From a bacterium (lineage in GTDB: Bacteria; Acidobacteriota; Aminicenantia; Aminicenantales; Aminicenantaceae), in contig JAGXKI010000024.1 of the NCBI GenBank assembly GCA_018335295.1, forward strand, positions 1 through 34,273: a stretch of DNA of 34,273 nt, written 5' to 3'. Position 1 is the first letter of the stretch; every line of letters begins with the position of its first letter. The notes beneath the pieces were generated by a model that had not been told where the DNA came from, did no database searches, and saw nothing but the letters and a program-made list of their open reading frames with translations. The translations under genes and the position numbers were made by a program. Below are positions 13,707 to 34,266 of this stretch, one piece after another.

Positions 13707-14687
13707 TTAAGAAACATATTCCCAAGGTTTGGAAATTTTAATCTTGACATAGTTTTTTTCTCTTAATTCCTGAAGAAATTGTTGCATTTTCTTCTCTCTT
13801 TTCTGATTGAATAATTTCTCTTCAATCTTTTTTCTCACTTCATCAAAAGGTTTCACTCTTTTCTCTTTTTTCCCTTTCAGTTTATACAGGTACCATCCAT
13901 TCTGGATTTTTATCCAGGGAGTACGTTCTCCTACTTCTAATTTTTCCACAGCCTTCTCCAGGTTTTCAGCTAATTCACCCTTCTTAAAAGTGCCTAAAGA
14001 GCCTTGGGACTTTTTTTCAGGACCTTCTCCATACTCAGAGGCCACCTGGGCAAACTTTTCTCCCGAGTCTAGTTTTTCCAGGATGTCTTTCTTCTTCTTT
14101 TCCACTTCTTCCTTACTTTTATCCTGGGAGGAGACATAGATGGCACTCAACTCATATTCCTCTGGTTCTACAAATTCTTCCTTGTGCTGGTTGTAGTACT
14201 CCACCAGGTCAGAATCATCGACAGAAATATCTCTCACCACCTCTGAAAAAATGACCGCTTGCTTCATCTGATTCCTTTCAATCTGCTCTTTCCAATCCTC
14301 AAAGTTAATCCCTTGCTGTCGCATGAGCTGCTTCAGTTTTTCATCCGACTCGATGGCGTTTTCCTTCTTGATGTTTTCGATGGTCCTACGGACTTGTTCG
14401 CTCACATCCATATCTCTTTTTTTCGCTTCTTGAAAAAGCAAAAGATCGGTGATCATGCTCTCCAACAAATTCTTTTTCAAATTATCATACCGCTGGGTAA
14501 ATTCTTCTCCTTCATACTGCGACCGAAGGTTTTGATACTGCTTTTCAAATTCCTTTCTGTATTCAGACAAAGTGATAACGTCATCATTCACTACAGCCAC
14601 GATAGCCTCAATGACTTCTCCTCCACTGAGAAACACAGCTGTGCACAAAATAAAGATGGTTAGGAGACAAATTTTTGGTTTGTTCAT
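13707..14687 (-). CDS. SurA-like periplasmic chaperone/peptidyl-prolyl isomerase
   Basis: A 326-residue exported protein. It has a signal peptide (about 1-23), then the SurA N-terminal helical domain beginning IVAVVNDDVITLSEY, the family's opening motif. One parvulin (PpiC) domain follows at about 178-275, with ASEYGEGPEKKSQGSLGTFKKGEL, and a C-terminal helix. E. coli SurA has two parvulin domains; one is common in other phyla. The expected role is folding of outer-membrane proteins in the periplasm. The start overlaps the stop of the upstream chaperone gene by four bases, so the two are translationally coupled and probably share the mfd transcript. Confidence 0.9.
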   Translation of the reverse strand: MNKPKICLLTIFILCTAVFLSGGEVIEAIVAVVNDDVITLSEYRKEFEKQYQNLRSQYEGEEFTQRYDNLKKNLLESMITDLLLFQEAKKRDMDVSEQVRRTIENIKKENAIESDEKLKQLMRQQGINFEDWKEQIERNQMKQAVIFSEVVRDISVDDSDLVEYYNQHKEEFVEPEEYELSAIYVSSQDKSKEEVEKKKKDILEKLDSGEKFAQVASEYGEGPEKKSQGSLGTFKKGELAENLEKAVEKLEVGERTPWIKIQNGWYLYKLKGKKEKRVKPFDEVRKKIEEKLFNQKREKKMQQFLQELREKNYVKIKISKPWEYVS

Positions 14688-15604
14688 GAGTGATTCCTTT
14701 GATAAGGGAAAGTTAAATGTTCTGGATAATAATCCCAGTTCATCTCTTTTTTGAGTTTTTGGACGTGTCGAGAAACAATTTGTTTGATTTTTCGCTTCAT
14801 AATGGTGAGTTCTATAGAAGATCGAACTTCATCCACAGCCATAAGCTGGGGTGGATATTTTTTATCCAGCCGAAAAATATGAAAGCCGTAAATGGATTTG
14901 ACCACCGGGCTTATTTCTTTTTCATCCAAAGAAAATATTACTTTTTCCATGGTGAACGGAAGTTGTCCCATTTCAAACATTCCCATCCTCCCCCCTCTGG
15001 AAGCTTCAGCTCCCTTGGAAATTTCTTGAGCCAGCCTCCTGAATTCTTCCTGAGTTGAGTCTTTCAATTGTTCTCTAATCTCTATAGCTTTATCCTCGGT
15101 CTTGACCAAAATCTGACTCACCTCCACCTGTTCGGGACGGAGAAATTTTCGTTTATTCTGTTCATAGTATTCTTCAATCTCCTCTTTTTTGACCTGCAAA
15201 TCTTTAACCAGTTTAGAAGTATACTTCTTTGTCAGCAAGTCCTCATAGAGGAGCTGCTTTTCCTCCAAAGAAAGCTCCTTATCCTTCTGCGGAAAATCAT
15301 CCCGTAATCTCACCAGGTGATCCTTCTTCTCCTTAGATGATAAAGATATCTCATTTGACCGAGCGGCTTCCAAAAGTATCTTCTCCTCGATAAAATTATT
15401 AAAGATTCGGCTTAAAGAAAGAGAGGATAGATTTTGATAATCTTCTCCGACATTGAGTTGGAGGTGCTTTTCAAAATCTGCATTCCGGTATTCAGAGTCC
15501 TGGACCTTAAGAATAACAGCGTTACTCTTCTGGGAATCGGTCTGAGCTGCTTCAGAGACACCTTTCCGTTCATCCTGAGTCTGACAGTGCCCCAGGTGTA
15601 ACAA
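14684..15604 (-). CDS. Parvulin-type isomerase with displaced signal peptide
   Basis: A 306-residue open frame for a PpiC/PrsA-type chaperone: helical N-domain (about 25-150), parvulin domain (about 155-250, with EVSQILVK, GGRMGMFEMGQLP and YGFHIFRL) and a C-terminal helix. The only in-frame start is a poor TTG at 15604, and the protein then opens in the middle of a signal sequence (LLHLGHCQTQ). The missing first part lies at 15605-15653 in the other frame, split off by a run of ten A. With nine A the protein would begin MLKKKYFNVGWCLLLALLHL and continue into this frame, a normal signal peptide with a possible lipidated Cys. See the entry for 15605-15653. It overlaps the next chaperone gene by four bases. 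Confidence 0.82.
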   Translation of the reverse strand: MLHLGHCQTQDERKGVSEAAQTDSQKSNAVILKVQDSEYRNADFEKHLQLNVGEDYQNLSSLSLSRIFNNFIEEKILLEAARSNEISLSSKEKKDHLVRLRDDFPQKDKELSLEEKQLLYEDLLTKKYTSKLVKDLQVKKEEIEEYYEQNKRKFLRPEQVEVSQILVKTEDKAIEIREQLKDSTQEEFRRLAQEISKGAEASRGGRMGMFEMGQLPFTMEKVIFSLDEKEISPVVKSIYGFHIFRLDKKYPPQLMAVDEVRSSIELTIMKRKIKQIVSRHVQKLKKEMNWDYYPEHLTFPYQRNHS

Positions 15605-15653
15605 GGCTAAAAGGAGGCACCACCCTACATTGAAGTATTTTTTTTTTCAACAT
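15605..15653 (-). other. Out-of-frame 5' end of the parvulin gene, with A10 tract
   Basis: ATG at 15653 and TTG are followed by ten A (complement of 15638-15647). As written, this frame stops after about 26 codons. Dropping one A joins it to the frame of 14684-15604 and restores a complete signal peptide. The candidate causes are transcriptional slippage, phase variation, or a one-base error in the sequence. The ATG lies just past the stop codon of mfd (which ends at 15657), as expected for a coupled gene. Confidence 0.7.
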
Positions 15654-15656
15654 CCT

Positions 15657-18600
15657 TCATCTTTTTTTATTCCAAATCATTATATTACACTTGGATAACT
15701 CCTTCAAGATAGAGATGGTTTCATCCATGATCTGTGTGGGATCCTCTCTCTGGAGATAAAGGCTCAAAACTCCCTGCGGAGTTATCGAACCCGAACGCTT
15801 TTTTATAAGACGGGTCATGGTTTGGACATCGGCGGAAGAAGAGGGGAAAAATTTAAATATCACTCTTTTTCCCACCCGGTCAATAGCCTTGATTTTCAAT
15901 TTTTGAGCCAAAAACTTGACCACTCCATAGCGGAGGAGCCTTTCCACACTGGGGGGAAGGGGTCCATATCTGTCTTCGATTTCCTTTCGGATCCCCTCGA
16001 TCTCTGATAATTCCTCAATAGAGGAGACTCTTTTGTACAGACTGAGTCTGAGATTGATTTGAGGCAAGTATTTTTCGGGAATTCTTATATCCACCTTTAA
16101 ATTGATCTCACTTTTAACCTTTTCAGTTTTTTCGCCTTTGAATTCTTTTATGGTCTGGTCCAGAAGATGCATGTAATAATCATATCCCACCGCTTCGATG
16201 TATCCGTGTTGTTGGGAGCCGAAAAAATTTCCCGCTCCTCTTATCTCTAAGTCCTTGGCCGCTAAACGAAACCCGGCTCCCAGTTCAGTAAATTCCTGTA
16301 AAGCTCTGAGCCTTTCCTTGGCCGTCCCGGTTAACTCAGTAAAAGGAGGAACCAAAAGATAAGCCACCGCTTGACGGGAAGACCGTCCCACTCGACCTCG
16401 AAGTTGGTAAAGCTGAGCCAGTCCAAAACGATCCGCTCGGTTGACAATGAGAGTGTTGACCAACGGAATGTCAATGCCGTTTTCAATGATGGTGGTCGAC
16501 ACCAGGACATTATATTTTTGGTCTATAAAGTCAATCATCCTTTTCTCTAACTCTTTACTGGACATCTGACCGTGGATGGTGATCACCCGGGACTCCGGAA
16601 CCCACCTTTGAATCATCTGAGCAATGGAATCGATATCTTCAATCCGGTTGTGAATAAAATAGACCTGGCCGCCGCGGAAAAGTTCGGTCTGTATAGCCGA
16701 AGAGATGAGTTTACGGCTAAAAGGAGTGACTACGGTGTGAATGGCTAATCTATCTTTAGGGGGCGTTTCGATCAAACTGATATCTCTCAATCCGCTCAAA
16801 GAGAAATTCAAAGTTCGGGGGATAGGGGTGGCCGACATGGTTAAAACATCGATCCGGGTTTTCATCTTTTTGATTTTTTCTTTGTGGTTCACTCCAAACC
16901 TCTGCTCTTCGTCAATAATAAGAAGCCCGAGGTCCCGAAACTGCACATCCCTGGAGAGCAACCGGTGAGTGCCGATAATGATATCCACCAAGCCCTTCTT
17001 CAAATCCTTGATTATCTTTTTCTGCTGGGCCTTGGATTGAAGGCGAGTGAGAGACTCAACTCTCAAAGGAAAAAGAACTATTCTATTCCGGAAAGTCTGA
17101 AGATGTTGGGAAGCCAACACAGTAGTGGGACAGAGCACCGCCACCTGCTTTCCATCCATCACCGCTTTAAAGGCCGCTCTCATGGCCACCTCGGTCTTTC
17201 CGTACCCTACATCCCCGCATAACAGCCGATCCATGGGGAAATCGGATTCCATATCCACCAACACTTCACGAATAGCCTTTTCCTGATCTTCGGTTTCTTC
17301 GTAGGGAAAAGTCTTTTCAAACTCTGACTGCCACTCCCCAGGAGGGCTGTATTTGTATCCTTTGGTCGATTTCCTTTCCGCATACAGCCGCAGCAACTCC
17401 TTGGTCATATTTTCAATGGCTTTTTTGGTTTTGGCTTTGGTCTTTTCCCACTGGGGACTTCCCAATTTGTGAAGTTGAGGAGAGTGAGATTTTGAATGGG
17501 AATATTTCTGGACCAGGTTAAGATCCTCCACAGGAACAAAAAGTTTGTCCCCATCTTTATACATGATTTCAATAAATTCCCCGGCGCTCTTATCCACTTT
17601 CATCTTAATCAACCCCTTAAAAATCCCGATGCCGTAATCGGCGTGGACTACATAATCCCCGGCCTTTAAATCCTGAAAATGAGTGCGAAAGGGTTTGACC
17701 CGGCGCCGGCTGACCAGAACTTTTTCTTCGGTGAACACGTCCTCTTGAGAGAAAAAAATGATTTTTTTATCGGGGAAACTGAAGCCATGATGGAGATTCC
17801 CCAACAGCAGCTTCACCGCCCCATCCCTGGAAACAGAAAACGGATTGGAAGCCTCCTCATACCGTAACTGGTGTTGAGAGAGGAGAGTGGCTAATTTCTG
17901 CCGCACTCCTGGACTCTTGAAGAAAATAAAACATCTTTCTCTTTCTTCCTGCAATCTTTCCAGATATTGGAGAAAGAAAGGAATCTTATTGTTAAACTGA
18001 GGAGTCGATTGAAAGGAAAAAGAAAAAGATTTCTTCTGAAGGGAAGGACTCAGGGGCCTCAGGAAGACAGCCTTTTTCTGGATCCTCTCCCATAGAGTCG
18101 GAGGATACATCTTCTCAGGAGGCAAGACAAAAATATTCTGGGATTTCAATTCTTCCTGTTGCTCTCGATAATCATGAAGGGTTTGATCCCAATCCTTTTT
18201 CACTTCCTCGTATTCATCCATAACCAAAAGGAAATCTTTCAAATAATGATGGAAGGGGACAAAATAATTTTCATTCATTAAAGAAAGGAAAGAAAAAGAA
18301 GGGAAGACGTCTTCCTCTTCCAAACACCGGATTTTTTTATTTAAATCTCCCCGACAATCAGGGGGGCAATCGTGAAGAGCCTTCTCCTTCCATTCCTTTA
18401 GAAATTGGAAGAGAGGGGGGTGTTCCCGAAGGGATGGAATGAGGACATGATCCAATCTTTCTTGGGACTTTTGGGTAGAGGCATCGAATTCTCTAAGAGA
18501 TACAATCTGGTTTCCACTCAGTTCAATCCGGAAGGGATGGGAAGACCAGGGAGAAAACACATCCACGATCCCTCCTCTCCATGCATACTCACCTGAAGAG

Positions 18601-19112
18601 TTGATCAAATCCTCTTTGGTGTAACCAAAATGTTTCAGCTTTTTCAAGAGTTCATCCCTCTCCACAGAAGTGCCTACTTCCAAGGTAAGGAACAAGTCTT
18701 GGATATACTGAGGGTGAGGGAAAGGTTTCAAAAGACCTAAGAGATTGGTGACCACCAACCGGGGATCGTTGTGAGTGAGTTCATAGAAAAAACTCATCCT
18801 GGAGGACACGGCTTCCAAGGAAGGAAAGATTTCCTGGTAAGGATTTTCAGAGAGAGGAGGAAGCGTATAGGTCTTCAAACTCGAAGAAAACAGAGACAAA
18901 AAAAACCGGCACTGCTCTTCAAAAGGAGATAAAGAATAAGTCGAGGGGCGTATAAAAATGATTTTCTTCTGGGTTTCCTGGAGCAGAGTGGAAAGAAAAT
19001 AGGGCTTGGCGGCTTCAGTAAGCCCCGTTACCTGGAGCCCTTCCGGTCTTTGATTCAGGGACTGAACGAAGGACTTGAACTCCGCGGTATGTTTTAAAAA
19101 ATCAACATTCAT
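15657..19112 (-). CDS. mfd: Transcription-repair coupling factor Mfd
   Basis: A cytoplasmic ATP-driven translocase that removes RNA polymerase stalled at DNA lesions and recruits UvrA. The 1151-residue length is standard. In order: UvrB-like module (about 1-340), RNA-polymerase interacting domain (GDYVVHADYGIGIF, about 485-498), helicase domain 1 with Walker A GDVGYGKT (633-640) and DEEQ (734-737), helicase domain 2 with RGRVGRS, and the C-terminal TRCF domain. The open frame reaches 19169, but the ATG at 19112 (MNVDFLKH) is chosen: an extended -10 promoter lies just six bases before it and would exclude the upstream codons. The two chaperone genes follow directly, so mfd probably heads a three-gene unit. 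Confidence 0.96.
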   Translation of the reverse strand: MNVDFLKHTAEFKSFVQSLNQRPEGLQVTGLTEAAKPYFLSTLLQETQKKIIFIRPSTYSLSPFEEQCRFFLSLFSSSLKTYTLPPLSENPYQEIFPSLEAVSSRMSFFYELTHNDPRLVVTNLLGLLKPFPHPQYIQDLFLTLEVGTSVERDELLKKLKHFGYTKEDLINSSGEYAWRGGIVDVFSPWSSHPFRIELSGNQIVSLREFDASTQKSQERLDHVLIPSLREHPPLFQFLKEWKEKALHDCPPDCRGDLNKKIRCLEEEDVFPSFSFLSLMNENYFVPFHHYLKDFLLVMDEYEEVKKDWDQTLHDYREQQEELKSQNIFVLPPEKMYPPTLWERIQKKAVFLRPLSPSLQKKSFSFSFQSTPQFNNKIPFFLQYLERLQEERERCFIFFKSPGVRQKLATLLSQHQLRYEEASNPFSVSRDGAVKLLLGNLHHGFSFPDKKIIFFSQEDVFTEEKVLVSRRRVKPFRTHFQDLKAGDYVVHADYGIGIFKGLIKMKVDKSAGEFIEIMYKDGDKLFVPVEDLNLVQKYSHSKSHSPQLHKLGSPQWEKTKAKTKKAIENMTKELLRLYAERKSTKGYKYSPPGEWQSEFEKTFPYEETEDQEKAIREVLVDMESDFPMDRLLCGDVGYGKTEVAMRAAFKAVMDGKQVAVLCPTTVLASQHLQTFRNRIVLFPLRVESLTRLQSKAQQKKIIKDLKKGLVDIIIGTHRLLSRDVQFRDLGLLIIDEEQRFGVNHKEKIKKMKTRIDVLTMSATPIPRTLNFSLSGLRDISLIETPPKDRLAIHTVVTPFSRKLISSAIQTELFRGGQVYFIHNRIEDIDSIAQMIQRWVPESRVITIHGQMSSKELEKRMIDFIDQKYNVLVSTTIIENGIDIPLVNTLIVNRADRFGLAQLYQLRGRVGRSSRQAVAYLLVPPFTELTGTAKERLRALQEFTELGAGFRLAAKDLEIRGAGNFFGSQQHGYIEAVGYDYYMHLLDQTIKEFKGEKTEKVKSEINLKVDIRIPEKYLPQINLRLSLYKRVSSIEELSEIEGIRKEIEDRYGPLPPSVERLLRYGVVKFLAQKLKIKAIDRVGKRVIFKFFPSSSADVQTMTRLIKKRSGSITPQGVLSLYLQREDPTQIMDETISILKELSKCNIMIWNKKR

Positions 19113-19118
19113 AGAATA

Positions 19119-19127
19119 ATTATAACA
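19119..19127 (-). promoter_or_regulatory. Extended -10 promoter of mfd (leaderless)
   Basis: On the minus strand TGT-TATAAT, a perfect -10 with a TGn extension, then six bases and the ATG. The -35 region is weak. The predicted start site is the A of the ATG. Confidence 0.55.
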
Positions 19128-19202
19128 TGCCTTTCCCAGAAGAAATAACCATCGGAAAGGCCGAGTCAATCGGAATTTTATGGATGATGAGGAGATTCCG
19201 TG

Positions 19203-33285: not shown

Positions 33286-34266
33286 ATGAAAAGTTCCACT
33301 CAATATGAATTATCTTTAGTCATTCCTGTATTTAATGAAGCAGAAAATCTGTCTGAATTATTTGAAGAAATATTGAATTCATGCTCCCAACTGGGAAAGA
33401 CCTATGAAATCCTGTTTGTGGATGACGGAAGTTGGGATCAATCCTTCTCTATTTTAAAAAAAATCCAGAAGAACCATTCCCAAGTTAAGATCATAAGTTT
33501 GAGAAAAAATTTTGGTCAAACCGCAGCTATTTCTGCAGGTTTCGATCACGCCAAAGGGGATGTCATCATCACCTTGGACGGCGATTTACAGAACGATCCT
33601 CAAGATTTCATCCACCTTATCCGTAAAATTGAGGAAGGATATGATGTGGTCAGCGGATGGAGGAAAAAAAGAAAAGACAAATTCTTCACCCGGAAACTTC
33701 CTTCCCTTATCGCCAACCGCCTTATTTCTTTTATCACCCGAGTCAAACTTCATGATTTTGGATGCACTCTGAAAGCTTTCCGAAAAGAAGTGGTGGAAAA
33801 CATCAATCTCTACGGAGAACTGCACCGATTCATCCCGGCCATCGCCAGTCATATGGGTGTTTCCATCGCTGAAGTCCCGGTCAACCACCGTCCCCGCCGC
33901 CGGGGAAAATCAAAATACAGTCTTCTCCGCTTTTTCAACGTCATCCTGGACTTATTGACAGTCAAATTTATGCTGAGTTATTCCACAAGACCTCTTCAGA
34001 TATTCGGGGCCTTCGGAATCGTCAGCGGAGGTTTGGGATTTTTCTTGGGTGTTTATCTTTCTTATCAGCGTCTTATCCTCAAAATCGGAATAAGCGACCG
34101 CCCTCTCCTCTTATTGGCTATCCTTCTGATGGTCATTGGGATTCAATTTATCACCTTGGGGCTTCTTGCTGAGATTATGGTCCGGTCCTACCACGAATCG
34201 GTGGAAAAAAAAATCTATTTCATCAGAGAAATCATCGATTCTGATTCTGAAAAACAACAAGACTGA
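33286..34266 (+). CDS. GT2 glycosyltransferase, DPM1/ArnC/GtrB type
   Basis: A 326-residue membrane-bound glycosyltransferase of the polyprenyl-phosphate sugar synthase group, which moves a sugar from a nucleotide donor to a lipid phosphate on the inner face of the membrane. The GT-A domain has SLVIPVFNEAENL (10-22), VDDGS (45-49), the metal-site DGDLQNDP (98-105) and RRRGKSKYS (204-212). Two C-terminal membrane helices follow at about 238-259 and 273-296, as in GtrB and ArnC. The sugar is unknown. It is divergent from the receiver-domain gene and complete within the window. Confidence 0.93.
   Translation: MKSSTQYELSLVIPVFNEAENLSELFEEILNSCSQLGKTYEILFVDDGSWDQSFSILKKIQKNHSQVKIISLRKNFGQTAAISAGFDHAKGDVIITLDGDLQNDPQDFIHLIRKIEEGYDVVSGWRKKRKDKFFTRKLPSLIANRLISFITRVKLHDFGCTLKAFRKEVVENINLYGELHRFIPAIASHMGVSIAEVPVNHRPRRRGKSKYSLLRFFNVILDLLTVKFMLSYSTRPLQIFGAFGIVSGGLGFFLGVYLSYQRLILKIGISDRPLLLLAILLMVIGIQFITLGLLAEIMVRSYHESVEKKIYFIREIIDSDSEKQQD

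Follow-up and report, generated by a model that had tools for sequence, protein, structure and literature searches.

The stretch of DNA analysed here (the 'window') is a whole contig, C29, of 34,273 bases, from an assembly of 2.54 Mb in 107 contigs with an estimated completeness of 93%. On its minus strand, mfd (15657-19169) is followed by a parvulin gene and then by a second, SurA-like parvulin (13707-14687). The mfd-parvulin junction reads, on that strand, ATGAAGGATGTTG, ten A (15647-15638) and then TACTTC, and it is this run (A10) that parts the parvulin reading frame from the ATG codons ahead of it. The features of the locus are as follows.

15657..19169, minus strand: mfd (transcription-repair coupling factor), the upstream neighbour
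15702..15707, minus strand: -35-like element TTGAAG within the mfd 3' end; similar sequence in many relatives
15679..15684, minus strand: -10-like element TATAAT, 17 nt past the -35 element; also in many relatives
15658..15660, minus strand: upstream ATG, the probable ancestral start codon by promoter spacing and N-terminal profile; overlaps the mfd stop as ATGA
15651..15653, minus strand: downstream ATG, the start codon of the preliminary description; poor match to the N-terminal profile
15638..15647, minus strand: A10 tract (T10 on the plus strand), from the sequence and run counts
14684..15637, minus strand: parvulin frame past the tract, with the remaining signal peptide (YFNVGWCLLLALLHLGHC) and a PrsA/SurA-like peptidyl-prolyl isomerase
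13707..14687, minus strand: second parvulin with a SurA N-terminal domain, the downstream neighbour

As the preliminary description of this DNA had it, the run stands directly after an ATG-TTG (15653-15648), as T10 on the plus strand at 15638-15647; the frame from that ATG closes early, after 27 codons (about 26 had been given); and the parvulin frame amounts to 306 residues. These are counted from the TTG at 15604, the first ATG, GTG or TTG in that frame. Past the tract the frame meets no stop until 14684, a length of 317 codons (318 positions including the stop), and with ten A a TGA at the tract edge closes it just upstream. What had been overlooked is a second ATG, at 15660-15658, which overlaps the mfd stop and opens a frame of 11 codons (MKDVEKKNTSM) that then stops in turn. 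The two ATGs lie seven bases apart and in different frames, and neither is in frame with the parvulin, which is -1 relative to the upstream ATG and +1 relative to the downstream one. One A more joins the upstream ATG to the parvulin and one A fewer joins the downstream ATG; ten 'serves' neither. Since the ATG frames differ from that of the parvulin, A10 is a run of at least nine A bridging two frames, as in genes that use slippage.

The encoded protein carries a PPIC-type rotamase domain, with scores of 81.9 bits for PF13145 (cut-off 27) and 59.5 bits for PF00639 (cut-off 21.7), and its best-scoring solved relative by sequence is 4wo7, Foldase protein PrsA. It resembles the PrsA/SurA-type foldases in this domain content (PF13145, PF00639), in an export signal recognised by eye and in the second parvulin that adjoins it, but differs from them in reaching the cut-off of none of the NCBIfam models, and in being ~50% identical to the nearest relatives compared. 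A Cys is seen by eye in the N-termini of most relatives, and the residue ahead of it is in many cases N, H, Q or D, where a usual lipobox has G, A or S. We suggest that the gene probably encodes an exported, presumably lipid-attached, parvulin of the PrsA/SurA-like kind; nothing on this parvulin gene or its tract in Aminicenantes was found among the literature matches listed.

Promoter and start codon

A sigma-70-like sequence, TTGAAG-17-TATAAT, lies within the 3' end of mfd (window 15707-15679, minus strand) and similar sequences occur in many relatives, both within the family and elsewhere in the order. We take it as the probable promoter of the parvulin gene. The mfd stop of several relatives falls within the -10 region itself, and the leader that follows the embedded promoter is short, often with no obvious Shine-Dalgarno sequence.

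An in-frame ATG stands exactly 18 nt past the -10 element in 19 of 47 copies of the gene in relatives, counting exact TATAAT only; these 47 omit L042 (taken as the contig of L011, whose length and N-terminus it shares), L032 (which repeats the locus of L052) and L053 (which is not orthologous). In the window this distance is 18 nt for the upstream ATG and 25 nt for the downstream one. Several relatives also share an N-terminus of the form M-K-x-L-x-x-K, for example MKDLELK (L012) and MKFLKRK (L006), and the upstream ATG gives MKDVEKK. Scored against a profile of 23 N-termini (drawn from the same 47 copies, 45 of which have an ATG), the peptide of the upstream ATG is equalled or beaten by 0.6% of random peptides, whilst that of the downstream ATG is equalled or beaten by 77% as read and by 88% as joined to the parvulin. 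The count of 23 is biased upward, because the ATG at 18 nt was preferred where present (without that preference the number is 19 of 47), and we regard the profile as supportive rather than as proof, because the leave-one-out scores of its own members range from -13 to +14.

Promoter spacing and N-terminal resemblance thus favour the ATG at 15660 over the ATG-TTG at 15653 that had been taken as the start, and the former is probably the conserved start codon, as judged from the sequences compared. It follows that the proposal of nine A as the length that joins a signal peptide to the parvulin is sound for the ATG at 15653, but does not carry over to the probable start at 15660, which needs another length.

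Relatives and the state of the mature gene

The gene is present, at E <= 1e-45, in 36 of the 38 family genomes searched, the window's own included. In all 35 of the others (every one of them from outside the window's genus) inspection of the N-terminal region revealed an in-frame ATG and, by eye, a signal-peptide-like N-terminus. Comparison of the tract in relatives, which the preliminary description had proposed as a check, therefore yields no conserved frame break: among the genomes compared, the break is private to that of the window. Three relatives have long A-runs in the same lysine-rich n-region, A10 (L022), A9 (L164) and A8 (L010), each of them in frame, and in 42 of 45 no A-run exceeds six within the first 60 nt. 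With 35 other family genomes in frame, three of them across A8-A10, this does not look like a conserved slippage 'device'; given the in-frame runs, the simplest reading of the tract is that it arises from AAA codons in the n-region of a signal peptide.

Beyond the family, 14 orthologs from the same order comprise 12 with an in-frame ATG, one with TTG (L043) and one with none of ATG, GTG or TTG (L052). The last of these (G028:C8, around 2500 on the minus strand), which belongs to a different family within the order, has no such codon in its parvulin frame and its nearest ATG lies out of frame across an A7; a sister species of the same genus, G034, appears to use the TTG of L043.

Downstream of the tract the window's gene has changed at one of 27 otherwise invariant columns, no more than many relatives have. 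With an open frame, both domain cut-offs passed and the invariant columns kept, there is no sign of long decay; judged from its sequence, the frame break would then be recent, not real, or tolerated. The ratio of parvulin to mfd terminal-branch lengths is on the high side, at 3.15 in the window lineage; it ranks fourth among 34, the median being about 1.6. Some relaxation could be hinted at here, though higher ratios occur on comparably long branches in L034 and L049, both of which have intact starts. The 34 sequences of this tree are the 32 other family copies with enough mfd, which include the second gene copy of G005 (L051), together with L026, from another family of the order, and the window.

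Long A-runs in the genome

Base composition alone makes the run unsurprising, as the window holds three runs of nine A, fewer than its shuffles (mean 7.1). Genome-wide such a run is rare: in 2.54 Mb there are 94 runs whose length is exactly nine A, and 5 that reach ten or more. Successive run lengths fall by a ratio near 0.4 up to eight A in a 331-kb sample of 43% GC, with a steep fall beyond; this sample was used for runs of up to eight only, because its stretches lie beside ones chosen for runs of nine. Extrapolating from runs of 5-8, on the assumption of a constant ratio of about 0.38, one would expect roughly 340 runs of nine and 210 of ten or more, both far above what is observed. For G000 as a whole, the shorter runs would thus project several-fold more runs of nine A, and tens-fold more of ten or above, than there are.

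A census covered 98 different A/T runs with a length of nine or above (93 of nine, 4 of ten and 1 of twelve). For 78 of these, the run falls within a frame that has a start codon and spans 80 codons or more, the run being read as A in 64 and as T in 14. By criteria that are simple, such that breaks in short or atypical genes would escape them, a gene was judged to be broken by its run in one case of the 98, the A10 of the window. Seven entries have a long frame opening at the tract: besides the window's, five have an ATG or GTG nearby, and the last (L090) has neither near the tract, yet the stop that opens its frame precedes the run. Three suspects at the other end of genes (L089, L133 and L143) look by eye like ordinary gene ends or overlaps. 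One further run of exactly nine, outside the census at 34205 in the window, lies inside a 326-aa frame (33286..34266). A widely error-ridden assembly was considered and rejected, the census having found a single gene break.

As for the longest runs, an intact frame of 237 codons carries a second A10, in frame, close to its start (C35, L039); an A10 in C60 and the A12 in C30 lie near gene ends, and the A10 of C86 precedes a gene. The A12 (L036, around 1498-1510, G000:C30) is the longest A run of the genome and stands near the end of what looks by eye like a gene of the metallo-beta-lactamase fold, such that a change in its length would affect the C-terminal tail alone. L090 (around 1470-1510, G000:C24) has a long frame that appears by eye to be TPR-repeat-like, with a signal-peptide-like N-terminus, VIYKKKHLKILVFLVLF. 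None of the usual start codons stands at its front, where an ATT following GAGGTG may serve instead.

Origin of the frame break

The relatives read straight through this region, so an ordinary one-letter slip is the most likely origin of the break, rather than an evolved switch. We accordingly put at about 70% the probability that A10 reflects an ordinary homopolymer indel (net one base), in the sampled cells or in the assembly, and not an evolved, conserved switch; the programmed slippage or phase switch raised in the preliminary description finds no support where every other family genome with the gene has its ATG in frame. In the mechanism we propose, the lysine-rich front of the signal peptide would be coded by the A-run, in which a net change of one base would have shifted both ATGs out of register with a gene that is intact in other respects, either through replication slippage in the sampled cells (probably recently) or in assembly. 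If the ten A are real, some full-length protein would probably still be produced: RNA polymerase is prone to slippage on runs of this kind, and the gain and the loss of one A would each join a signal peptide to the parvulin. Leaky expression of this sort is plausible by analogy with the tssM1 and symbiont genes described below, and would be helped by the two starts in different frames. Against a simple indel, an intact mature frame is also expected if the gene is steadily expressed by slippage, and the parvulin/mfd branch ratio is high. More generally, breaks of this sort in draft assemblies of uncultured bacteria resemble switches and call for caution; here the checks that argue for an ordinary slip are those made on the relatives, on which start codon is the true one and on all the genome's other runs of this kind.

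The second half of this explanation, taken alone, is that sequencing or assembly miscounted a run whose true length is in frame. We think this possible, but would not bet on it: the sequence comes from a single assembly in 107 contigs, presumably of metagenome type, all family relatives are in frame and the mature frame is intact, but no other of the 98 long runs was judged to break a gene, the region occurs just once in the assembly, which gives no hint of mixed strains, and the A10 of C35 is in frame, from which it follows that the assembly can render such runs correctly.

Alternatively, A10 may be real and 'rescued', with RNA polymerase slippage varying the length of the transcripts, some of which would carry the complete exported chaperone, and with selection maintaining the arrangement. 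Baranov et al. (PMC1088944) link depletion of long runs, often from nine bases, to slippage, and runs of at least nine A are depleted in this genome; however, depletion does not separate replication from transcription slippage, and could stem from the former instead. The two ATGs in different frames, which make the gain or the loss of one A productive, and a mature protein free of decay fit a rescue well, but the tract and the break are not conserved in any of the 35 family relatives, and on balance we consider it unlikely. Frameshifts in homopolymeric tracts were reportedly treated by Tamas et al. (2008) in the context of Blochmannia and Buchnera. These symbionts, as described in PMC3017870, offer a parallel in genes that are intact but for a single poly-A indel, with transcriptional slippage as a possible rescue; they differ in being AT-rich and obligate, in that some of their frameshifts are shared between species and in that rescue was shown, where the present genome is of 43% GC (331-kb sample) and the frameshift is found in it alone. 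The A11 of Citrobacter rodentium tssM1, according to PMC4256274, is also a long A run before a premature stop, with the downstream part out of frame, and is rescued in this way; mRNAs with 10-15 A were measured there, whilst the parvulin tract is read here from DNA sequence.

In its strongest form, which we judge decidedly improbable, A10 would be real and fixed in the species, with expression arising only by RNA polymerase slippage at the dual-start site, such that two exported N-termini are made and slippage about 25-35 nt into the transcript sets the level of the chaperone. A real and fixed tract would make this a case of slippage-dependent expression of a conserved envelope chaperone in a genome of moderate GC and of presumably non-symbiotic lifestyle, in which the two-start layout renders slippage productive in both directions.

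We find little to recommend phase variation, in which the run would act as a contingency tract turning the exported chaperone on and off. Poly(A) runs are described in PMC2831843 as hypermutable and preferentially placed at 5' ends, and the parvulin tract is indeed an A-run at the 5' end of a gene for an exported protein; in Listeria inlA, from the same source, a 5' poly(A) run in the first codons likewise truncates an exported protein to a short peptide, although the parvulin tract is read here from a single genome. Against phase variation, a long run at the site is not conserved (at most six A within the first 60 nt in 42 of 45 relatives), the gene is of housekeeping type, and two starts in different frames mean that one length class in three is 'off', which makes for a poor switch.

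Less credible again is translation from the TTG at 15604, the first usual start codon in frame, to give a 306-aa protein with no signal peptide core, as this would forfeit most of the hydrophobic N-terminal segment of the relatives. Programmed -1 ribosomal frameshifting at A AAA AAA, read from the ATG at 15660, is the least probable of all and was rejected for want of a stimulatory structure and of conservation: the 0 frame does read GAA AAA AAA AAT, which contains the heptamer A_AAA_AAA, with the parvulin in the -1 frame and an AAGG a few bases upstream, but the site lies just five codons past the start and is not conserved, folding of the 79 nt downstream does not improve on shuffles (z +1.1), and neither does that of the leader and start region (z +2.1).
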